Source: an uncultured Mycobacteriaceae bacterium
Lineage (GTDB): Bacteria > Actinomycetota > Actinomycetes > Mycobacteriales > Mycobacteriaceae
Assembly (NCBI GenBank): GCA_902826815.1
Contig: CADEGF010000006.1
Coordinates: 1-64,000, forward strand
Reading direction: 5' to 3'
Length of the DNA: 64,000 bases
Of this stretch, positions 41,820-52,420 are shown in pieces (position 1 is the first letter of the stretch; each line of letters opens with the position of its first letter). The notes below the pieces were generated by a model that saw nothing but the letters and a program-made list of their open reading frames with translations, did not search any database and was not told the DNA's origin. The position numbers were made by a program, and so were the translations under genes.

Positions 41820-43304
41820 CTACTCGGTGTCGTCGCCAGCAGCGGAATTGTTGTCGTCCTTGCCGCCGAGGGCCTTCTTCACCGTGCCCGAGACGGCCTT
41901 GACGACGTCTCGCACCGGATGGAAGTCCTTCAACGCCTTCTGCAGCGGACGGTTCGAGTTCGATCCAACCGCAGCACTGTTCTCGCCTGGCTTGGCGAAG
42001 AGGCCCAGTCGCAGGTCAGGTGTGCCCAGCTTCGTCGTCGTCGCAGTCTGAAGGACGGACTGGTTCGTGCCGCCCGTGTCCGACAGGGTGGTCAGCGTTT
42101 GCGGCCCCTGTCCTGCCGGCGGCGGCAGCGGTGTGCGGCCCGGTGTCAACGCCATGTTGATGCCCTCGGGAATGTCGTTGACCAGATCCACCGCGGTCTT
42201 GATGGGGTTGAAGGTTTTCGGCGGAAGGATCGTTCCCGGCTGCGGATTCGCGTAATTCGAACGGTCGTAACCGGTTTCGATAAGCGTTTGCGTTGCGGGA
42301 GATAGCAGGTCGGTGATCGGCACGATCAGCGCTGATGTGCCCGTCGCATCACCAAGGTCGACGAACGGCTGGAATATCGGCAGGTACTTGGCCGGAAGCG
42401 TGACATAGATCGTGTCACTACCATCCACATGCTGGCAGTACGTCTCCGCACTGCAGTCAGCCTGCGCTGCCGTGACCGCATCCTGGATCTCCTGCGGGGT
42501 GTAGCCATACGGCGTCTCCGTGCTCGGGTCGTCGCCGTCAGGCGTGAGGTAGGTGCCGTGCACGTATTGGAAGCCGGCAACCGCATTGGCGAGTGCCAAT
42601 GGATTGGCCAACCATTGCGGGAAGTCGACGACGCCGTCGTACATCAACGCGAAGTCGGTGGCGCAGATTCGATCGCCGTCATCACACGTATCAGTCAGTG
42701 TTGGATCGCCGAACTGCGCGTCAAGGATGGGGACATTGCCGAGGAAAGCCAGCCGCTCGAAGAGCCCACCGCTCGGACGCTGGGGGTTGCCGATGAAGAA
42801 GTAGTCGGTCAGCGGTTCGCCGGCTGCGTCGGGGTGAGTGTTCTTGAAATTGCTGGCGACCGTGGCGCCCTGCGAGTATCCGAAGATCGTCACGTGATCA
42901 GTTGCCGGGACCAGGTCGTAAGCGTCGGTCAGATGCTCGAGGCCCTGACCCACCGACACGTTCCACTTCTGACCCTCGAGTCCGCCCCAGCCCGGCAGTG
43001 GGATCGGCCAGAAGGTGGCGTAGTACTTGACGCCGGTATGAGCGGGACAGTCCGCCACAGGTGTCTCGGCGCAGCCGCCACCTGGGTTGACGTAATAGTC
43101 CATCGCGTTGTTGAGGTAGTTGTTCGGCACATAGGGGTCGGGCGTACCCGTGCCGGGCACGATGATCGCCTGAAACGCGGACAGCCCGAGGGATGCGGTG
43201 ACGGCCGTCGTCAGCGACTGCATCACGCCGATGACCAGTGCGGCCAAGGCCGTCAGGATCGCAAGAATCATTGACCTTGCTAACGATCGGGTCTTGTTCC
43301 GCAT
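41820..43304 (-). CDS. PE-PPE-domain serine hydrolase, secreted
   Basis: A 494-residue protein with an N-terminal signal or anchor (SMILAILTALAALVIGVMQS) and then an alpha/beta hydrolase of the PE-PPE domain type (PF08237-like). AIIVPGTGTPDPYVPNNYL, the nucleophile elbow FGYSQGATVAS, and DFFIGNPQRPSGG-like segments are typical. No PE or PPE N-terminus is present. The C-terminal 130 residues are Pro/Thr/Ser-rich and low complexity. Likely cell-envelope lipase, esterase or acyltransferase. ATG at 43304 has GAGGAG about 7 nt upstream. It begins the block absent from the M. tuberculosis ESX-4 surroundings. Confidence 0.85.
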   Translation of the reverse strand: MRNKTRSLARSMILAILTALAALVIGVMQSLTTAVTASLGLSAFQAIIVPGTGTPDPYVPNNYLNNAMDYYVNPGGGCAETPVADCPAHTGVKYYATFWPIPLPGWGGLEGQKWNVSVGQGLEHLTDAYDLVPATDHVTIFGYSQGATVASNFKNTHPDAAGEPLTDYFFIGNPQRPSGGLFERLAFLGNVPILDAQFGDPTLTDTCDDGDRICATDFALMYDGVVDFPQWLANPLALANAVAGFQYVHGTYLTPDGDDPSTETPYGYTPQEIQDAVTAAQADCSAETYCQHVDGSDTIYVTLPAKYLPIFQPFVDLGDATGTSALIVPITDLLSPATQTLIETGYDRSNYANPQPGTILPPKTFNPIKTAVDLVNDIPEGINMALTPGRTPLPPPAGQGPQTLTTLSDTGGTNQSVLQTATTTKLGTPDLRLGLFAKPGENSAAVGSNSNRPLQKALKDFHPVRDVVKAVSGTVKKALGGKDDNNSAAGDDTE

Positions 43305-43408
43305 CAGCGCTCCTCGCCTCGGTTCCCCGAGGAATCCTGCCACTGGGACGCCTTGCGTATGGGCAGAACCGAGCAAACTATCAAGCGTGACAAATTATCG
43401 GGAGATGC

Positions 43409-44461
43409 CTAGCGCCACCTTGACCATACGTACGGCACCAGCGACCGAAGAAAGTCGAGGTCGGATCCGGGCTCGGCGTCGGCGAACGCCTCCTCGAAGT
43501 ACTCCTCGGCCACTAACAGGATTCCCTCGGCATATTCACCGGCGAAGGTGATGCTGCCGTAGTCATCCATCAGTACCCGAATCTTGGTGACGAGTTCCGG
43601 CGTCCGCTCACCGCGCGTCAGACCGAGATACTCGCGTACTAGAGCAAAGTCATCGCCAGTTGCATTCGACATTAAATGCATCAGCGGCAGCGTGCGCTTG
43701 CCCTCGTAGATGTCGCCAAGGATCTCTTTGCCGTACGTCCGCTCGTTCCCGACCAGATTGAGCAAGTCGTCGCGGATCTGGAAGGCGGCACCGAAGTGAA
43801 AGCCGAAACGCACCAACGGGCCCGGATCTGCCGTGCCCTTCGATCCGACGATCGCGCCGACTCGAAGCGGATGAATCGTGGTGTACCAACACGTTTTGTG
43901 CATGATGAGCTCGAGGTAGTTCGACGGCCCAAGGCCCTCCACGTCGTCTAACTGCCAACCAGCCTCTGTCGCTTGCCCTTCCAGAGTCCGCAGCGCCATC
44001 ATGTCGAACTCGGCCCACACCTGGTCTGCTATTTCCTGATCGAACCGACGGGTCGCACGCCGCAGAACCTGGCCGGCGATGACGGCGAGGCCGTCTCCCG
44101 CGTTCAGCGCCGCCGCCGTTCCGTGGGTTGCGGACAAAGTCGGCCTGCCCCTGCGCATCTCGCTTCCATCGGCGACGTCATCGTGCACGAGAAACGCGTT
44201 GTGCATCATCTCGATCGCCACGGCGACGCCGAGAAGATCCTCGGTGTCGCCGCCGAACGCGCGACCAGTCGACAGGCAGAGTGCCGGCCGCAACGCCTTG
44301 CCCGGCCGTGACGGATACTCCCGCATCGGCGCATACAGCCAACGCACCGGTTCCCCGTCGGGTATCGCGTCCAGCATCGCTCGACGGACGACCTTGCCCA
44401 CCTCGCGCAGGCGGTCCTCGACACCGGCAATCGGGTCGGCCCGATCCGCGGTATCGGTCAT
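43409..44461 (-). CDS. Polyprenyl diphosphate synthase family protein
   Basis: A 350-residue trans-isoprenyl diphosphate synthase. First aspartate-rich motif DDVAD at residues 94-98 followed by GSEMRRGRPT; second motif region QIRDDLLN at about 228-235, where the last Asp of DDxxD is Asn. GKALRPALCL near 55 is the IPP-binding lysine/arginine region. It should condense IPP with an allylic diphosphate; chain length cannot be read. ATG at 44461 overlaps the upstream gene's stop as ATGA. It is one of several likely prenyl synthases in such a genome, and its coupling to an unknown protein suggests a dedicated pathway. Confidence 0.88.
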   Translation of the reverse strand: MTDTADRADPIAGVEDRLREVGKVVRRAMLDAIPDGEPVRWLYAPMREYPSRPGKALRPALCLSTGRAFGGDTEDLLGVAVAIEMMHNAFLVHDDVADGSEMRRGRPTLSATHGTAAALNAGDGLAVIAGQVLRRATRRFDQEIADQVWAEFDMMALRTLEGQATEAGWQLDDVEGLGPSNYLELIMHKTCWYTTIHPLRVGAIVGSKGTADPGPLVRFGFHFGAAFQIRDDLLNLVGNERTYGKEILGDIYEGKRTLPLMHLMSNATGDDFALVREYLGLTRGERTPELVTKIRVLMDDYGSITFAGEYAEGILLVAEEYFEEAFADAEPGSDLDFLRSLVPYVWSRWR

Positions 44462-45153
44462 CAGTCCGGAGGCCGAATGGTGACGGTCACTGGAATCGCG
44501 AGGTCGGGGAAGCCTTCGGCCATCAGGGTTCCGCAGTAACGCGCGGGCGGAACCTCCTGGTCGACAAGGACCTTGATCGAAACTCCACGGCTGGAACGTC
44601 CTGGCATTGGCACCGTTTCGGGATCGAATTGGATTGCCGCTGAACTGATCACGTGTCCGTCGTGAGCGAGGAGTTCGCTGCACCGCAGCCGGACGTCGCC
44701 CATGTTTCCCAAGCCTCTGTTGTGCAGCCAGACCTCTCCCCTTGCACAGCCAGGGGAGCCGGATTCCAAGTCGAGCGCCCCTTGAGCCTCGGCTTTCTCC
44801 AGATCGAGCCGGGCCGGGCCTTCGCGGGTCTCATCCACCAGCTGCGTCGAACCCCGAATGAATTGATCCGTCATGGACAACCACGACCGCAGAATCGGTT
44901 CGATAACCGCACCATCGGCTTTGTCGCCATTACTGTCCGCTGACGACGATTCAACCGGAGGAGCCTTCGAATGTTTCGCACCGTTACCGTTCGGGCTCGC
45001 CATCCGGACGAATCGATCGACCAATTCGCTTGCCGCGCGGAAACCTTCGGCTTGGATAGCCGTCAGCCGACGAGCGTTCGCCTCTGGATCCAGGATCGAC
45101 GCGAAGAACAGGTCTGCGAAGTTGCCATTATCACCAATTTCGCGTTCTGACAC
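44461..45153 (-). CDS. Unknown protein, helical N-terminus and beta-sandwich-like C-terminus
   Basis: A 230-residue protein I do not recognise. Residues 1-50 are helical (NFADLFFASILDPEANARRL then TAIQAEGFRAASELVDRF), 50-80 form a polar linker, and about 115-230 look beta-rich and Ig-like (EVWLHNRGLGNMGDVRLRCS, then RYCGTLMAEGFPDLAIPVTV). Two or three cysteines lie in the C-terminal part. GTG at 45153 has GGAGG about 8 nt upstream. It shares its 82-nt upstream region with the divergent plus-strand operon and overlaps the prenyl synthase by ATGA, so the two are made together. Confidence 0.68.
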   Translation of the reverse strand: MSEREIGDNGNFADLFFASILDPEANARRLTAIQAEGFRAASELVDRFVRMASPNGNGAKHSKAPPVESSSADSNGDKADGAVIEPILRSWLSMTDQFIRGSTQLVDETREGPARLDLEKAEAQGALDLESGSPGCARGEVWLHNRGLGNMGDVRLRCSELLAHDGHVISSAAIQFDPETVPMPGRSSRGVSIKVLVDQEVPPARYCGTLMAEGFPDLAIPVTVTIRPPD

Positions 45154-45235
45154 GGCATCCGCCTCCCCCGAATAAAGCCCTGCTGACGTCAATTTATGAA
45201 GGTATGCTAGGCGCATTCTCGGGGCAGGAGGGGAA
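45154..45235. promoter_or_regulatory. Divergent promoter region of the isoprenoid-linked gene set
   Basis: An 82-nt gap between two divergent starts. On the plus side GGAGGGGAA precedes ATG 45236 and TATGCT (45203-45208) is a candidate -10 box; no convincing -35 is seen. On the minus side GGAGG lies before GTG 45153. AT-rich AATTTATGAA at 45191-45200 is the only AT-rich spot. Bidirectional control of both operons is likely. Confidence 0.45.
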
Positions 45236-46678
45236 ATGAGTGCACTGGGTTCGCTCTTGACGCTCTATGGGGCACTCGACACGGCCGTCCAGGAAGCCGA
45301 CGATCCCCTGGTCCTCCAGACTGTGGACCGTTTCCTCCCAGGCGCCAGCACCCATGCGGGGTGGTCGGAGGAGATTCGCAGGTTCCTCTCGACCGAAGAA
45401 AACCAATTCCAGACCACGGGCGATATCGGAGAAGACGTCAGCCTGGCGCTGAACGGAATCACGACGCCGCTCGCCGGGGAACCGCCGCTGTCCATACCCA
45501 TGAAGTCGAGGATGGTCTACATCCTCGGTGCGCTCACCCATATCGAGGCCGCCAAGTCGGATACCAGGAACCGGCCGGGGTTCATCGACGCACTAACCAT
45601 CGCGCAGCCGCCCGACACTTCGGTGCGTGAACAGCGCCAACTCGCCGAAGAACTTCTGACCGCACTGACGTTGAACTTCACCGGCTGGCAGGACTGGGAC
45701 GAGATCACCGCACTTTCCGACCTGCTCGATCCACTGATTGCCGATGTGCCACTGTGTATCCCGGCAGTCGTCAAGGTCGAAGGGTACGACTGCGTCGTGA
45801 TCGACGCGATCCTGACATCGTCCACGGTCAAGTTCAAGAATTTGAAGGACGTGGTCGACGCACTCAACTGGCCGAAGGCCTACCCGAGCTTCTTCTGCTC
45901 CGTGACAGACCTCGGGCTGCGCACGGATAAGTGGCGCGGGATCCTCGAACGCGCGGGACTCTGCCACGACAACTCCTACATCCTCAAGACGCCGCTGAAG
46001 TACATCAAGAGCGCGCCGAGCAATATCACCGCGACCCTCGACTATGACCTCATCGAAAAGAACCCGGTCAATGCCATGGCGCTGGGTGGCGACGGCAAAG
46101 TGCTCGTCGACAAGGGCTACATCAATATGCGGTGTACCTCCGACGGCCTCGATCCGGACAAGCCCGGCGTGTGGGTGCGGACCAGAAAGGTCGCGCACGT
46201 CACGGGACTCTCGCCCTACGCCCAAGCCAAGTTCCTGTGCATCTGCGGATACGGCTACGCCGCCGCCGAGATGATCTTCGGCGCAGCAGAGGACGTGGAG
46301 GACCACCCCGGCGACTACCGTCCGTGGTCCGATGACCCGCTGAAGGACGCCGACGAATTGGAGAGCGACATGGAAGATGCCAAAGCCGGCGCACCTGCGC
46401 CCGTCGGTCCGGGCGAACCGCCTCCTCCTCCGAACATGGACGCCGTCACGAAGATCGTCAAGAAGTGGAAGGACTGTGTCGACCTCCTGACGACGACGCA
46501 TCTTGACCTGACCGGCAAGTGGTTGGCCGGACAACTGAGCTACGGCGAGTTGGCGAAGACCGGCGCCCAAGTCGGCGCAAAAATCGGCAGCGATCCGTGG
46601 CTGCTGCTCCACGAGTTGACCCAGGCACCGAAGCCGGGTCCGACACCGCCGGGCCCCGTAGAGGGAGGTGGCCCATGA
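45236..46678 (+). CDS. Unknown 480-residue protein
   Basis: I do not recognise the family. No signal peptide or membrane segment. Residues 1-170 are helical. Residues 180-345 are richer in strands and cysteine (YPSFFCSVTDLG, ERAGLCHDNSYILKTPLKYI, KVLVDKGYINMRCTSDG, VWVRTRKVAHVTGLSPYAQA, KFLCICGYGYAAAEMIFGAA), which could be a lipid- or ligand-binding domain; that is a guess. An acidic/proline linker (GPGEPPPPPN) precedes a helical C-terminus ending in PGPTPPGP. ATG at 45236 has a strong GGAGG. First gene of a four-gene operon with 4-nt overlaps. Confidence 0.7.
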   Translation: MSALGSLLTLYGALDTAVQEADDPLVLQTVDRFLPGASTHAGWSEEIRRFLSTEENQFQTTGDIGEDVSLALNGITTPLAGEPPLSIPMKSRMVYILGALTHIEAAKSDTRNRPGFIDALTIAQPPDTSVREQRQLAEELLTALTLNFTGWQDWDEITALSDLLDPLIADVPLCIPAVVKVEGYDCVVIDAILTSSTVKFKNLKDVVDALNWPKAYPSFFCSVTDLGLRTDKWRGILERAGLCHDNSYILKTPLKYIKSAPSNITATLDYDLIEKNPVNAMALGGDGKVLVDKGYINMRCTSDGLDPDKPGVWVRTRKVAHVTGLSPYAQAKFLCICGYGYAAAEMIFGAAEDVEDHPGDYRPWSDDPLKDADELESDMEDAKAGAPAPVGPGEPPPPPNMDAVTKIVKKWKDCVDLLTTTHLDLTGKWLAGQLSYGELAKTGAQVGAKIGSDPWLLLHELTQAPKPGPTPPGPVEGGGP

Positions 46679-47190
46679 GCCAGCCCTACGACCAGTTCGC
46701 CGAATACTCCGCGGCCCTCAAGGATGTGATCAAAAAGGGCACCGAGATGACGGTGGAAGCCGCAAAGCGTGCCGATGCGGACGATTTCGGCATCGACGCC
46801 AGGATCAGCACGGCACATGAGTTCGTCGATACGGAGATCAAGGGGCACGCAAAGCTTCTCGAGACCTTGATCAAGGGACCACTGGTCCCGATCGTTTCCA
46901 ACATCCCGCTTGATTCGGATCCGATATACATCACGCCGGTGCCGTATGACCGCACGGTCGAGGCAAAGGCACCATGGGTGCGAATCGGCCTCAACACCGA
47001 AATTCTTCCAGTCAACGTGATCAAGGTTCCAGCAGTGGTGCCCGCCAATTCCGGCTCGTTCAAAATCGGCCTGAAGGACTACAACTACATCGGGGCGAAC
47101 TACCGGGGCGACCTGGTTCTCAAGAAAGCAGCGACAGGGACGAACGCACTCGCCGACGACGGTGAGATCACTGTCACTGCGGGGCTGTGA
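46675..47190 (+). CDS. Unknown 171-residue protein
   Basis: A helical N-terminal half (QFAEYSAALKDVIKKGTEMT, then EFVDTEIKGHAKLLETLIKG) is followed by a beta-rich C-terminal half (WVRIGLNTEILPVNVIKVPA, SFKIGLKDYNYIGANYRGDL). This helix-plus-beta layout resembles the 230-residue protein on the opposite strand. No membrane segment or known motif. ATG at 46675 overlaps the previous stop as ATGA, and its stop overlaps the next start as GTGA. Confidence 0.68.
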   Translation: MSQPYDQFAEYSAALKDVIKKGTEMTVEAAKRADADDFGIDARISTAHEFVDTEIKGHAKLLETLIKGPLVPIVSNIPLDSDPIYITPVPYDRTVEAKAPWVRIGLNTEILPVNVIKVPAVVPANSGSFKIGLKDYNYIGANYRGDLVLKKAATGTNALADDGEITVTAGL

Positions 47191-50100
47191 ACGACTCTGG
47201 CCACCCGGCGTCTGTCGACGAACTGCTCGATCGCGCCGTTCAAGCGATCAACCGTGGCGACCGCGCAACTGCCGATGCGCTCGCCGAGCAGGTGCTGGCC
47301 GTCGACAGTGACAACGCCGAAGCCGAGGAGCTGCTCGCCGCACCCGACGACAGCGGCGAGATCCGCCGACTGACAATACTTTTCGCCGACCTTGTCGACT
47401 CCACGGCGTTGTCGACCCGGGTCGAACCAGAGGTCTACCACCTGGTGGTCGGAAGCTACAAGAAGCTGGTGCGCAACGCCGTTGAGCGCTACGAGGGCCA
47501 CATCGGGTCCACGAAAGGCGACGGTTTGCTTGCGGTGTTCGGCCACCCCCTCGCCCATGAGAACGACGGGCAGCGCGCCGTGCTGAGCGGCCTCGACATC
47601 ACCCGCGAGGTGTTGGTACTCAGCGACACTGTGCGCCAGCGCTTCGGCTTCGACATCGACGTCCGGGTCGGCGTGCACCGAGGTGTCGTCTACCTGGATA
47701 TCGAACAGGACGACGTCTACGGACTCGGAGCGAACCTCGCTGCCCGCATGTGCAGTCTGGCCGCTCCAGGCAGTGTCGCGGTATCGGCCACCATCGCGCA
47801 CATCGTCCGCGATAATTTCGAGCTCGACAGCCTGCCCGCCAAACCCGTGAAGGGTGTCGAAGGCGATATCGACCACTACCGCGTCGTCGCCGAACGCGAC
47901 AGCGGGGACATCTCCCGCGGACCGCTTGTCGGACGGGAGGAGGAAATCCACTACCTCGAGGAGGTCTGGGCGCAGGCCGAACGCGGCTCGCTGACAAGGC
48001 CCGGCGTCGTCTTCCGGGGCGAGTCCGGCATCGGCAAGACCCGACTGGCGGGTGCGGCCATCGAGATGGCAGAACGGTCGCACGCGATCATCCTCGGACT
48101 GTTCGGATCACCGTTCCACGCCGATGTCGGACTTCGGCCCGTCCGCAGGATGATCGAGCGGCACTGCGGCATCGACCGTGACACCGAGCCCGCAGAACGG
48201 CTGCGCCGCCTCGAGAACGAGGTGGCGGCGCGCGGTATGAACCCGGCCGACGCGGTGCCGCTGCTGGCGCCCGTGCTCGGCATTTCACAGCGGGTCGGAT
48301 ACCAACCCGCCAAGGCCGAGGGCGCCAAGCTCTTCGACCAGATCGGCGGCGCTGTTCGGGACTACCTGGCGGCTTGCTTCGACGACAGGCCCGGCCTCCT
48401 GCTGGCCGACGACATGCACTGGTTCGACGAGGACACCATTGATCTCGTCGCCTCCCTCATCGACACGAATCCGGGCCGACTGCTCATCGTCATCACGGCG
48501 CGAGAGCTGGACCCCGTCCCCGACGGCGCCCGGGTCTTCGACCTCAAGGCGCTCACCGACAAGGAATCCGATCAGCTCATCGCTGCGCTCGGCCCCGGGC
48601 TGCACTCCGAGGCCCGCAGCGCTGTGCGTTCGCGTTGCGACGGCATACCGCTCTACATCGAAGAAGTCGTCACGAAACTCAAGGAGCAGCCGTCCGACGC
48701 CGCGGAGGGAACCAGGGTTCCCGACAGCATTTACGAGGCACTCTTCGCACGGCTCCGGTCGAGCGAGAACGCCGTGCGCGTCGTCGAGGCCGCCGCCATC
48801 TGCGGCGGACGATTCGACCGAAATCTGTTGGTATCGGCCTCCGAGATCGACGAGGAGAGCGTCGACCAGGTGATCGGTGAGCTCGTCAAAGGCCGAGTGT
48901 TCATCCCGCTGGACGAGAAGAGTTTTCGGTTCCGCCACGAGCTCTTACGCGAGCTGGCCGCGGAGCTGCCGCCGCCTACACTTCAGCTCCGCTTACACAG
49001 TCGAATCGCTGATGCGCTGGCCTCCCCCAATGCGCCAACCAATCCCGACTGGCCACTGATTGCGACCCACTACCACCAGGCCGAGCGGTACGACGACGCC
49101 GTCTCCGCCTATCAGAAAGCGTCAGCGGACGCTCGCCGCCGCGGGGCTCTTGGCGAAGCGCGTGCCCATCTCGACCGCGCGATCGAACACGTCGAGCGCA
49201 TACCTGCAGGCCGACCGCGCGACAAACGTGAGATCGCCGTGCGACTGGAACGCGGATTCCTCGCCTCCGCTGCGCAGGGCCACACCAGCCCCGAAGCACT
49301 CGCTGAATTCGAACGGTGTCTCCAGCTGATCAACGGCGAACCCGGCCCTGCCCTGTACGCGACCTTCAACGCGCTCTGGTTCCACTACTCGTCGCGCGGC
49401 GATCTGCGTCGGGGACGGCAGCTCGTGGAGTCGATGAGGAACCGCCCCGTCGCGACACTCGATGCGACGGCGGCCGTCAGCGATGCAGCTCTCGGTGTGC
49501 TCGCGGCGTTCCGTGGCGAGCTCAGTCTGGCTCGGGAGACGTTGGAGCACTCGGCGGCCGCGATGGAGGCTGACGGCGCACCCGAAGTGCAGACTTGGTA
49601 CTCGCCCAACGACCCGATTGCCGGCATGTACTCATTCCTTGCGCTCGCCAGATTTCTACAGGGCGACTTGGCGGAAGCCGAGGCTGCTCTATCCGCAATG
49701 GAAACGCGTTGCGAGACACTTGAATTCCCTCGTGGTCCATCAAGCCTGTGCTACGGACGCGCACTCGACTCGTGGATCCACATCGAAGCGGGTCAGCTCG
49801 ACCGCGCCACCGAACTGGTCAAGGACCTGAAGAGGCGCAGCAAGCAGGACGGCTTCGACGAATGGGTGATGATCGCCGACAGCAACCGGGCCGTAATCGA
49901 AAGCAAGAGAGCACTGTTCGCGGGTGAGCGGGAAGCGCTGGACATACATGTTCAGGCGCTGACGGCCGTCACCCAGGGCTGGCGCGCCCTCGAGCTCCGC
50001 ACCTGGCTCGCGTTCTACGACGCAGCCCTTGTCCGCGCGCTCATAGGTGTACGTGATCTCGCTGCCGCACGCGCACACGTCAAGCTCTCGCTGCAAATGG

Positions 50101-50372
50101 CCGACGAAACCGACATCCATTTCTACGATGCCGAACTGTTGCGACTGCGCGCACAAACATCCGACGACCCAGCCGAGCAGAAGGCAGACCTCCTGACGGC
50201 CATCACACTTGCCCGCCGCCAGGGCGCGGGGCTGTTCGAATTGCGGGCAGCCACAGACTACTTCGAGAAATTCGGCGAACCCGGCCGGGAGGCGCTGGCT
50301 GAGGTGACGAACCGGTTGCCGGAAGCGACCGCCTGGCCTGAACTGGCGTACGCGCGAGCGCTGCTCGGGTGA
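47187..50372 (+). CDS. Class III nucleotidyl cyclase - STAND ATPase - TPR protein
   Basis: A 1061-residue multidomain protein. A class III cyclase domain spans about 58-235: metal-binding D68 (LFADLVDST), K110 and D112 (STKGDGLLAVFG), and N183/R187 (GLGANLAARM), so catalytic residues appear intact. A STAND/AAA ATPase follows with Walker A GESGIGKT at 278-285 and a Walker B-like LLLADDMHWFDED near 395. The C-terminal 450 residues are TPR-like helices. No DNA-binding domain is found, unlike the LuxR-containing mycobacterial cyclase regulators. It could sense a ligand and produce cAMP or another cyclic nucleotide. GTG at 47187 overlaps the preceding stop. Confidence 0.9.
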   Translation: MNDSGHPASVDELLDRAVQAINRGDRATADALAEQVLAVDSDNAEAEELLAAPDDSGEIRRLTILFADLVDSTALSTRVEPEVYHLVVGSYKKLVRNAVERYEGHIGSTKGDGLLAVFGHPLAHENDGQRAVLSGLDITREVLVLSDTVRQRFGFDIDVRVGVHRGVVYLDIEQDDVYGLGANLAARMCSLAAPGSVAVSATIAHIVRDNFELDSLPAKPVKGVEGDIDHYRVVAERDSGDISRGPLVGREEEIHYLEEVWAQAERGSLTRPGVVFRGESGIGKTRLAGAAIEMAERSHAIILGLFGSPFHADVGLRPVRRMIERHCGIDRDTEPAERLRRLENEVAARGMNPADAVPLLAPVLGISQRVGYQPAKAEGAKLFDQIGGAVRDYLAACFDDRPGLLLADDMHWFDEDTIDLVASLIDTNPGRLLIVITARELDPVPDGARVFDLKALTDKESDQLIAALGPGLHSEARSAVRSRCDGIPLYIEEVVTKLKEQPSDAAEGTRVPDSIYEALFARLRSSENAVRVVEAAAICGGRFDRNLLVSASEIDEESVDQVIGELVKGRVFIPLDEKSFRFRHELLRELAAELPPPTLQLRLHSRIADALASPNAPTNPDWPLIATHYHQAERYDDAVSAYQKASADARRRGALGEARAHLDRAIEHVERIPAGRPRDKREIAVRLERGFLASAAQGHTSPEALAEFERCLQLINGEPGPALYATFNALWFHYSSRGDLRRGRQLVESMRNRPVATLDATAAVSDAALGVLAAFRGELSLARETLEHSAAAMEADGAPEVQTWYSPNDPIAGMYSFLALARFLQGDLAEAEAALSAMETRCETLEFPRGPSSLCYGRALDSWIHIEAGQLDRATELVKDLKRRSKQDGFDEWVMIADSNRAVIESKRALFAGEREALDIHVQALTAVTQGWRALELRTWLAFYDAALVRALIGVRDLAAARAHVKLSLQMADETDIHFYDAELLRLRAQTSDDPAEQKADLLTAITLARRQGAGLFELRAATDYFEKFGEPGREALAEVTNRLPEATAWPELAYARALLG

Positions 50373-52420
50373 GCCGTTCGAAACCCCGCATCGCCATCCT
50401 CGGCGGCGGCATGGCGGGACTGGCCGCCGCGTGGCGCCTCAGTGAACCCGGTTGGCGAGACCGGCTCGAGTCGGTCACCGTCTACCAACGCGGGTGGCGG
50501 CTCGGCGGAAAAGGGGCGTCCAGCCGCGGCGAGAACGGCCGGATCGAGGAACACGGCCTACACGTGTGGCTCGGCTCATACGAGAACGCATTCGCGCTGC
50601 TGCGGGAGTGCTACAGCCAACTCGACCGTGCGACAATCGATCCCGACGCGCCGATTCGCGATTGGCACGAAGCGTTGGTCCCGTCCGAGAACCTCGGGCT
50701 GGCAGACCGATGGGGCACCGACTGGTTGGTATGGCCGGGCCACCTCTCCCAAACAGAAGGTCTGCCCGGCGACCCGGACACCGTCGGCCGAGAGATGACG
50801 GCGGTGGACTTTCTCCGTCGCGCCATGCAACTCCTTCTCGACTTCGCGGACTCCGTCGACTTCGGGACCGAACTCGGTCTCGTGCTCACAACGTCTCCCG
50901 ATCCACCGCGAGCCTCCGTCGCAGCGGTTCAGTCGGCCGCTCTCGCGGCATTCGCCGCACTGGCTTCCCAAGCGCCAAGCGACGACATCATCGGCCACAT
51001 CGACCATGTCCTCGACGTGATCAGCGATGTGCTCGACGGAGAGCAGGAGCCAGAGCAACGGCGGTCGTGGCTGCTCTTGTCGATGGTGACCGCGACCGCG
51101 CGCGGGCTGATCGCCGACGAGGTGGTGACCGATCCGCGCGGCTTTCGCGCGCTCAACGACGAGGACTTCGGCGACTGGATCATCCGGCATCGCGCACATC
51201 CGGGAGTCATCGAGTTCCCGATGGTGCGCGCGATGTACGACATGGTGTTCGGATACGCCGACGGTGATCCGAACCGTCCGGCTTTCGGTGCGGGGGTCGC
51301 CGTATTCCTCACCGGTCTCGCCTTGTTCGGTTACAAGGGCGCATTCTTCTGGAAGATGACGGCAGGGATGGGCGATGTGGTGATCGCTCCCCTGTACCAA
51401 GCGCTCCGCGCTCGCGGAGTCGAGTTCGAGTTCTTCCATCGAGTCGACGGGATTCATCTCGACGCCGATCGACTGGCAGTCGATTCGATCACGATGGGCA
51501 GACAGGTGCGCCTCGCCGACGGCGTCGACCACTATGAACCGCTGACTCGGGTGCACGGCCTTCCCGTCTTCCCATCCAGTCCTCTCGCCGATCAGATCCA
51601 ATCCGGCGAAGTCGACTCGCTCGAAACATATTTCGGGCCACACCACGACGTCGAGACGCGGGTACTTCGTCGAGGTGTCGACTTCGACCACGCCGTGCTG
51701 GCGGTCTCGCTCGGGATGATCCCACTCATCGCGAGCGAACTCATCGAGGACCGCCCCGACTGGCGCGACATGACCGCACACATCGACACCGTGGCCACCC
51801 AGGCATTCCAGATTTGGTGGCGGCCCGACGATCAAGCGCTCGGCTGGCACAGGCCCGGCGTCACCACGAGCGCGTATGTCCCACCATTCGACACCTGGGC
51901 TTCGATGCCGCAGACGCTGTGGGCCGAGGACTGGCCCGAGCACGACCGACCGGCCGCGGTCGGTTACTTCTGCGGCAGCCTGGAAACCGCGTGGCCGACC
52001 GCGATGGAGCACGCCGACTACGCGCGGGACTGCGAGACGCGAGTGCGCGCCGATGCGCTTCGGTACCTGGACCGCGACGTCGGACTGTTTCTGCCGAACG
52101 CGGTCACCGATGACGGTTTCGCGTGGCACCTCGTGAGCGGAGTGAACGGCGAACGCGGCGCGTCAGCGCTCGCTACCCAACACGTGAGCGTCAACATCGA
52201 CCCCTCGGATCGCTATGTCCAGTCGGTACCGGGGTCGGACCGATATCGCCTGCGGGGCGACGAAAGCGGTTACGACAACCTGGTTCTTGCGGGTGACTGG
52301 ACAGACTGCGGGCTGAACGCCGGCTGTATCGAGGCGGCGGTGATGTCAGGCCTGCAGGCGGCGAATGCGCTGCTCGGCCGAAGCCGCTTTCACCGGATCC
52401 GCGGCTACTACCTACCCTGA
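50369..52420 (+). CDS. FAD-dependent phytoene-desaturase/amine-oxidase-like protein
   Basis: A 683-residue flavoprotein. FAD motif GGGMAG at 12-17 in IAILGGGMAGLAAAWRLSE; RGWRLGGKGASSR is the second FAD contact region; EEHGLHVWLGSYENAFALLR follows as in hydroxysqualene dehydroxylase/phytoene-desaturase relatives. The C-terminus has the closing motif LVLAGDWTDCGLNAGCIEAA. The middle (150-330) contains a large helical insertion. Expected role: oxidation or desaturation of an isoprenoid or other hydrophobic substrate, fitting the divergent prenyl synthase. GTG at 50369 overlaps the cyclase stop. Its TGA abuts the TGA of the convergent CGNR gene (TGATCA). Confidence 0.85.
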   Translation: MSRSKPRIAILGGGMAGLAAAWRLSEPGWRDRLESVTVYQRGWRLGGKGASSRGENGRIEEHGLHVWLGSYENAFALLRECYSQLDRATIDPDAPIRDWHEALVPSENLGLADRWGTDWLVWPGHLSQTEGLPGDPDTVGREMTAVDFLRRAMQLLLDFADSVDFGTELGLVLTTSPDPPRASVAAVQSAALAAFAALASQAPSDDIIGHIDHVLDVISDVLDGEQEPEQRRSWLLLSMVTATARGLIADEVVTDPRGFRALNDEDFGDWIIRHRAHPGVIEFPMVRAMYDMVFGYADGDPNRPAFGAGVAVFLTGLALFGYKGAFFWKMTAGMGDVVIAPLYQALRARGVEFEFFHRVDGIHLDADRLAVDSITMGRQVRLADGVDHYEPLTRVHGLPVFPSSPLADQIQSGEVDSLETYFGPHHDVETRVLRRGVDFDHAVLAVSLGMIPLIASELIEDRPDWRDMTAHIDTVATQAFQIWWRPDDQALGWHRPGVTTSAYVPPFDTWASMPQTLWAEDWPEHDRPAAVGYFCGSLETAWPTAMEHADYARDCETRVRADALRYLDRDVGLFLPNAVTDDGFAWHLVSGVNGERGASALATQHVSVNIDPSDRYVQSVPGSDRYRLRGDESGYDNLVLAGDWTDCGLNAGCIEAAVMSGLQAANALLGRSRFHRIRGYYLP

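Follow-up and report, generated by a model that had tools for sequence, protein, structure and literature searches.

The nearest described parallel to the locus considered here, a six-gene cassette in a stretch of 64,000 nucleotides from an uncultured Mycobacteriaceae bacterium (contig CADEGF010000006.1, assembly GCA_902826815.1; hereafter the window), is found in the family 2 encapsulins. Polyprenyl transferases are associated there with shells that may bear a cyclic-nucleotide-binding domain (PMC8346489). The cassette likewise ties a prenyl synthase to cyclic-nucleotide handling, but it would make the cyclic nucleotide rather than bind it. Among NCBIfam models, the window's synthase matches NF041169 (polyprenyl transferase encapsulin cargo) best, at 170.5 bits against a cut-off of 450, and no shell match was seen among the six proteins, to which this search was limited; a family 2 encapsulin system was accordingly rejected. 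The parts of the cassette are known superfamilies, while their combination, of the isoprenoid biosynthetic operon kind, appears new: no description of it was found in the open-access literature, a scope outside which many subscription papers lie. On balance, the cassette is best read as an accessory module that makes and binds an isoprenoid and has cyclase signalling built in. Its six genes, which almost certainly form one unit, occupy nine kilobases in two divergent operons:

43409..44461, minus strand: PPS, a trans-polyprenyl diphosphate synthase of 350 aa, probably short-chain (C20-like), identified by PF00348, its Asp-rich motifs and the solved relative 1wmw.
44461..45153, minus strand: U230, a protein of 230 aa with a helical N-terminal half and a beta-rich C-terminal half (from sequence), a possible PPS adaptor.
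45154..45235, no strand: divergent intergenic region of 82 nt, with TATGCTA at 45203-45209 as candidate -10 box of the plus operon.
45236..46678, plus strand: U480, with a helical N-terminal domain, a predicted START/SRPBCC domain (~residues 170-360) and a helical C-terminal part.
46675..47190, plus strand: U171, a helical hairpin followed by a C-terminal beta sandwich (AlphaFold2 model).
47187..50372, plus strand: CYC, a class III nucleotidyl cyclase joined to an AAA/STAND-type ATPase and a TPR-like region, 1061 aa.
50369..52420, plus strand: FAD, an HpnE/desaturase-type flavoprotein of 683 aa (PF01593).

An earlier note on this DNA had placed six open reading frames at these coordinates, and they were recovered there, together with the 82-nt divergent gap and the 4-nt overlaps at the three plus-strand junctions (ATGA, GTGA and GTGA). 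The ATGA that it had reported on the minus strand was not: between U230 and PPS the window has TGATG, which gives an overlap of 1 nt if PPS starts at its ATG.

Within the genus, the cassette genes are found together. In a sample of 98 genomes searched with U480, FAD and U230 (genomes are numbered G and loci L below), U480 matched in 23, FAD in the identical 23, and U230 in 22 of these carriers; the carrier without a U230 match (G069) is an assembly of 73% completeness in which the contig starts inside U480. None of the three proteins found a match in the remaining 75 genomes. At the loci of 22 relatives, the remaining cassette genes lie in the same layout wherever the contig extends far enough. 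A second bait, a FAD profile run against the contigs of named genomes, retained 80 of 168 relatives, 55 of them mycobacterial, and all six genes are present in 50 of those 55 loci. Contig ends truncate four of the incomplete loci (L053, L054, L072 and L095); at L091 (Mycolicibacterium sp. CH28), the cassette stands at the window's site with five genes, lacking CYC (L091:10001-17200). A saccharopine-dehydrogenase-like gene follows FAD in L091. About a quarter of the sampled mycobacterial species carry the cassette, nearly always whole or absent. The co-occurrence that the earlier note proposed to check holds within the genus for U480, FAD and U230, the three genes searched genome-wide, none of which was seen there independently of the others.

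With start codons picked by script, the junctions score -4 nt at U230/PPS in 48 of 50 loci, at CYC/FAD in 44 of 47, at U171/CYC in 34 of 47 and at U480/U171 in 29 of 50. CYC precedes FAD in 47 of the 50 complete loci and follows it in the other three. When the divergent gaps of the window and 49 loci were compared, TATGCTA was present in 42 of the 50 sequences, at a median of 28 nt before the script-chosen U480 start (mononucleotide shuffles give an expectation of 0.12 in 50), and the eight sequences without the exact box retain a related TA-rich one, as judged by eye. The recurrence of the same divergent six-gene order in the named mycobacterial loci and the enrichment of this box show that the layout is more than chance.

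The cassette is mobile as a whole, and its chromosomal position varies. In the window, EccB4/MycP4-type genes stand to its left and ABATE/CGNR and EamA genes to its right; both flanks recur at 27 of the 55 named mycobacterial loci, the right one only at four and neither at 24. Comparison of 22 of these last among themselves (L054 and L072 were omitted as short) reveals a second shared site in nine (L058, L061, L063, L066, L067, L073, L093, L097 and L104), and smaller groups at still other sites. The genes on either side of the second site were recognised by eye and are presumably thyX, dapA, dfrA and thyA. Thirteen of 16 cassette-free genomes were also compared, leaving out those with the weakest EccB matches (G004, G016 and G076), and in all 13 no cassette gene lies within 13 kb beside eccB4. 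In five of them (L140, L144, L145, L147 and L148), 47-105 bp separate the ends of the EccB4 and CGNR matches; in two the distance is about 1.9 kb, and in the other six cutinase genes come after EccB4, without CGNR or EamA. Given these empty counterpart sites, the cassette is an accessory insertion at the window's site. A PE-PPE-domain gene lies between eccB4 and the cassette (window 41823-43376); of the compared loci, just three had a match to it (L050, L051 and L084). The ‘single regulated system’ of the earlier note is thus upheld as to its unity by concordant presence, varied sites, empty sites and the FAD/PPS co-variation described below.

PPS matches PF00348 well above the cut-off (E 2.6e-54; 184.5 bits, cut-off 27), and its best solved relative is the geranylgeranyl diphosphate (GGPP) synthase of T. 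thermophilus (1wmw, 158 bits). Among the 67 cassette synthases of at least 300 aa, the first motif (HDDxxD) is kept in all and the second (DDxx(D/N)) in 66. The family match and both Asp-rich motifs place PPS among the trans-prenyl diphosphate synthases, and it shares fold family and motifs with the GGPP-type enzymes (1wmw, NF041003, NF040698). It differs from them in being co-translated with U230 and in falling below every NCBIfam equivalog cut-off, GGPP ones included. In such synthases, a small residue at -5 and a Phe at -4 of the first motif points to a C20 product. Mycobacteria mostly have A and F at these positions, and many other bacteria A with L or M; under this rule, they suggest that PPS makes a C20 chain. 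The PPS gene is spread over two frames at L055:3078-4219, L026 and L083, by frameshift or sequencing error.

FAD (PF01593, 2e-18) belongs to the same flavoenzyme superfamily as the hydroxysqualene dehydroxylase HpnE and the carotenoid desaturases (TIGR03467, TIGR02731, TIGR02732). HpnE is the top NCBIfam match in all three FAD proteins scanned (window, L119 and L133), and desaturases rank next for the window's FAD. However, identification as HpnE was rejected, as the score of 89.6 bits against TIGR03467 compares with an equivalog cut-off of 283.05, and FAD is also far below the NCBIfam cut-offs for phytoene desaturase and zeta-carotene desaturase. With 683 aa, it further differs from these enzymes in residing in a cassette that has no phytoene or squalene synthase.

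For the three proteins called unknown in the earlier note, profile searches agree with that label: Pfam, NCBIfam and PADLOC, with E values up to 1 admitted, gave no match for U230, U480 or U171. The sequence of U480 likewise has no counterpart among solved structures (E up to 1). Its residues ~170-360 are predicted to adopt a helix-grip fold, assigning U480 to the START/SRPBCC superfamily, and its Foldseek matches include the CERT START domain and the carotenoid-binding START domain of silkworm. The helix-grip fold is common to ZhuI, MSMEG_0129, CERT START and the silkworm protein, but U480 differs from these in its flanking helical domains, which have no known family, and in its pairing with U171. 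On this model, U480 may bind a hydrophobic ligand. The U171 model has a mean pLDDT of 80.8 (beta part mostly >90, helices ~60-75) and no clear fold match. When 296 genomes of the phylum were searched with the single U171 sequence, the only match was in the window's own genome, although one of the others, G011, carries the cassette; a search of this kind lacks the sensitivity for U171, and its zero count is not evidence of absence. U480 and U171 share one open frame of 676 codons at L032:9435-11462 (genome G012), and second copies of U480 occur in L065, L090 and L095, with a second U171 alongside in L065 and L095.

CYC matches PF00211 (1.3e-15) and PF13191 (9.1e-15; 56 bits, cut-off 32.6), with TPR matches below cut-off. 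In the mycobacterial proteins, D68, D112, N183 and R187 are present in 54 of 54, K110 and D176 in 53 of 54, and Walker A and B are kept. This set therefore has the metal Asp pair, the Lys/Asp purine pair and the Asn/Arg of class III nucleotidyl cyclases, and the Walker motifs in an AAA_16-type domain followed by a C-terminal repeat region make CYC a STAND ATPase. Pfam shows no DNA-binding domain in CYC, whose output would therefore be cyclic AMP (cAMP) or protein contact. The cyclase-ATPase-TPR architecture is shared with the TOMM kinase/cyclase fusions (TIGR03903; 261.2 bits for CYC, 531 bits for the L119 protein), but CYC is without the kinase part (matches begin at model position 278-280) and misses the cut-off of 705.75. 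A TOMM system was rejected on this score and for want of a YcaO (PF02624) match in the window's genome.

The six proteins do not evolve alike. Median pairwise identity, computed over 39 six-gene loci (11 of the 50 were set aside because U480 was duplicated, because U480 or PPS was broken across frames, or because they belonged to the clade of such loci), is 77.7% for PPS, 65.7% for FAD, 51.4% for CYC, 46.1% for U230, 29.2% for U480 and 23.0% for U171. U480 identity barely tracks that of PPS (rho 0.14), but tracks those of U230, U171, FAD and CYC (0.51-0.63). The biosynthetic enzymes are thus the fixed part of the cassette and the putative carrier pair U480/U171 its changing part. In 25 chosen loci, the pairwise identities of PPS and FAD co-vary (Spearman rho 0.81, and 0.77 in the 18 non-mycobacterial ones; the pairs are not independent), and the trees of the two enzymes split alike, into Actinobacteria and Gram-negatives.

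Beyond mycobacteria, FAD and PPS recur in Actinobacteria and Proteobacteria. A small helical/beta protein lies between the two or next to them, and a cyclase is often near. Over the whole phylum, the FAD family is rare (4 of 296 genomes at E 1e-30). PPS was found in 19 of 25 non-mycobacterial loci and a CYC match in 18 (within the fetched stretches; that of L121 scores just 34 bits). All six genes are present in L100 (Propionibacteriales) and L109 (Acidimicrobiia), and five in L098 and L111. Where FAD-PPS tandems leave a gap, an open frame of 194-296 codons fills it in 14 of 14 loci, and the gap proteins of Gram-negatives show a weak C-terminal match to U230. At L130, PPS lies in a single 548-codon open frame with a preceding 195-residue stretch. 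At L123, a further small protein is encoded on the opposite strand ~5 kb from PPS (L123:19296-19919); it has no Pfam match, and its end resembles that of the PPS-side adaptor. In Proteobacteria and Myxococcales, the core lies beside ADC-like and NAD(P)-binding proteins, with a FadL-type outer-membrane channel by Pfam in L125 and Azospirillum. The 815-1130-aa proteins after PPS at L119:13080-16469 and L125:14118-16562 have an acetoacetate-decarboxylase match below the Pfam cut-off and no other family. FAD homologues on plasmids (Azospirillum, Qingshengfaniella, Rufibacter and Catenovulum) sit beside cyclase, ADC, FadL or kinase-STAND genes. Plasmid p3 of Azospirillum brasilense (L133:11902-24617) encodes two of them with a FadL-type channel, an ADC-family protein and a 1919-aa kinase-ATPase-GAF-PAS-histidine-kinase protein; this set looks like a related but different module. 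On a Rufibacter tibetensis plasmid (L134:4181-17093), the homologue adjoins a cyclase-domain protein of very large size, and a patatin-like phospholipase is encoded a few genes further along.

How the cassette might work can be outlined in four steps. PPS, aided by co-translated U230 as its presumed partner, would build a short-chain, probably C20, all-trans prenyl diphosphate. The HpnE-like FAD may then desaturate, saturate or dehydroxylate the prenyl product without passing through phytoene or squalene. The START cavity of U480 would hold the hydrophobic product, U480 working with U171, a pairing suggested by their joint duplication or fusion in some loci. Finally, the cyclase-STAND protein might sense the loaded or empty carrier and produce cAMP. 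That the product is an isoprenoid is probable; that the cyclase responds to it has about even chances. The earlier note had proposed the making or modifying of an isoprenoid with cyclic-nucleotide or ligand sensing built in, and this putative function fits the enzyme families, the kept motifs and the START fold of U480. A bolder extension, speculative and rather doubtful, is a lipid-signal circuit in which PPS, U230 and FAD make an isoprenoid messenger, U480/U171 form its START receptor and occupancy is turned into cAMP through CYC. The enzyme/cyclase core would then have spread over Actinobacteria and Proteobacteria and the receptor pair diversified, each lineage reading its own ligand variant.

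Several observations weigh against a module of this kind. U480 and U171 evolve fast and often go undetected outside mycobacteria. In four of the six non-mycobacterial loci without PPS (L101, L102, L105 and L107), the stretch is short or ends early on one side; this does not apply to L117 and L122. The annotation of the four plasmid stretches with FAD homologues lists no prenyl synthase, which limits any claim that the FAD family always pairs with PPS. Independent occurrence in other genomes, which the earlier note had named as evidence against its proposal, is thus seen in part outside mycobacteria, in the undetected U480/U171 and in these plasmids. The five-gene locus L091 indicates that CYC may be dispensable. 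In 15 non-mycobacterial cyclases, D68 is kept in 12, D112 in 13, N183 in 14 and R187 in 12, but K110 and D176 in two each, so that their specificity may differ or their activity be weaker. Lastly, as the START fold also occurs in enzymes such as aromatase/cyclases, U480 might itself be an enzyme instead of a carrier.

Other explanations fare less well than the isoprenoid-making and -binding module. In a lipid-body or scaffold system, which is unlikely, U230 and U171 would act like phasins, coating or organising a deposit of isoprenoid that U480 loads. Both proteins combine N-terminal amphipathic helices (hydrophobic moment up to 0.73 in U230 and 0.54 in U171) with a C-terminal beta domain, and both evolve faster than the enzymes. 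However, amphipathic helices are common, those of U171 are modelled at the modest confidence given above, and U230, U480 and U171 have no phasin match in Pfam at E up to 1.

A similarly improbable alternative is an accessory branch of the carotenoid or squalene/hopanoid path, in which the PPS product would go to a phytoene or squalene synthase encoded at another locus, and FAD would desaturate or dehydroxylate the resulting C30/C40 hydrocarbon. The closeness of FAD to HpnE, and then to the desaturases, speaks for it, as does a phytoene/squalene synthase (PF00494) in 17 of the 23 carriers, the window's own genome among them. Yet PF00494 is about as frequent in non-carriers (55 of 75; 72 of the 98 genomes in all), with no clear difference between the two groups, and the scores of FAD are far from the HpnE and both desaturase cut-offs. 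Six of the 23 carriers (G012, G013, G020, G022, G068 and G086) have no PF00494 match, five of them listed as 99-100% complete and one as 96%. As PF00494 is not in every carrier, the cassette was not assigned to this path; an ordinary carotenoid path is unlikely, and neither phytoene nor squalene has to be the substrate of FAD. Most simply, FAD would act on the PPS product or a derivative of it.

More improbable still is a defence system in which the cyclase-STAND sensor triggers a lipid-acting effector and the fast-evolving U480 and U171 serve recognition. Patchy presence (23 of 98 genomes), a common insertion site with empty counterparts, the STAND ATPase, the match of the cyclase domain to PADLOC PycC (best E 3.7e-13) and the rapid divergence of U480/U171 would all suit such a system. 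On the other hand, the other five proteins have no PADLOC match except a weak one for PPS (E 0.057), no effector is visible, and the biosynthetic enzymes are the best conserved members of the set. Pycsar itself was rejected, as PycC matches the cyclase domain alone and no Pyc effector is found among the other five cassette proteins. That unconnected genes share a locus by chance is scarcely credible: the wider FAD family does occur in other contexts, but this explanation is already largely refuted by co-occurrence within the genus, and the same set at different sites and the short overlaps at most junctions also oppose it.

If the cassette is an isoprenoid module of this type, then about a quarter of the sampled species in a heavily studied genus carry a complete and compact unit for making and binding an isoprenoid, with its own nucleotide-cyclase regulator. 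Three unannotated protein families, one of them a START-fold ligand protein, would gain a testable role, and the cassette would offer a small gene set for working out a new prenyl lipid, the reaction of a flavoenzyme and the input of a cyclase.

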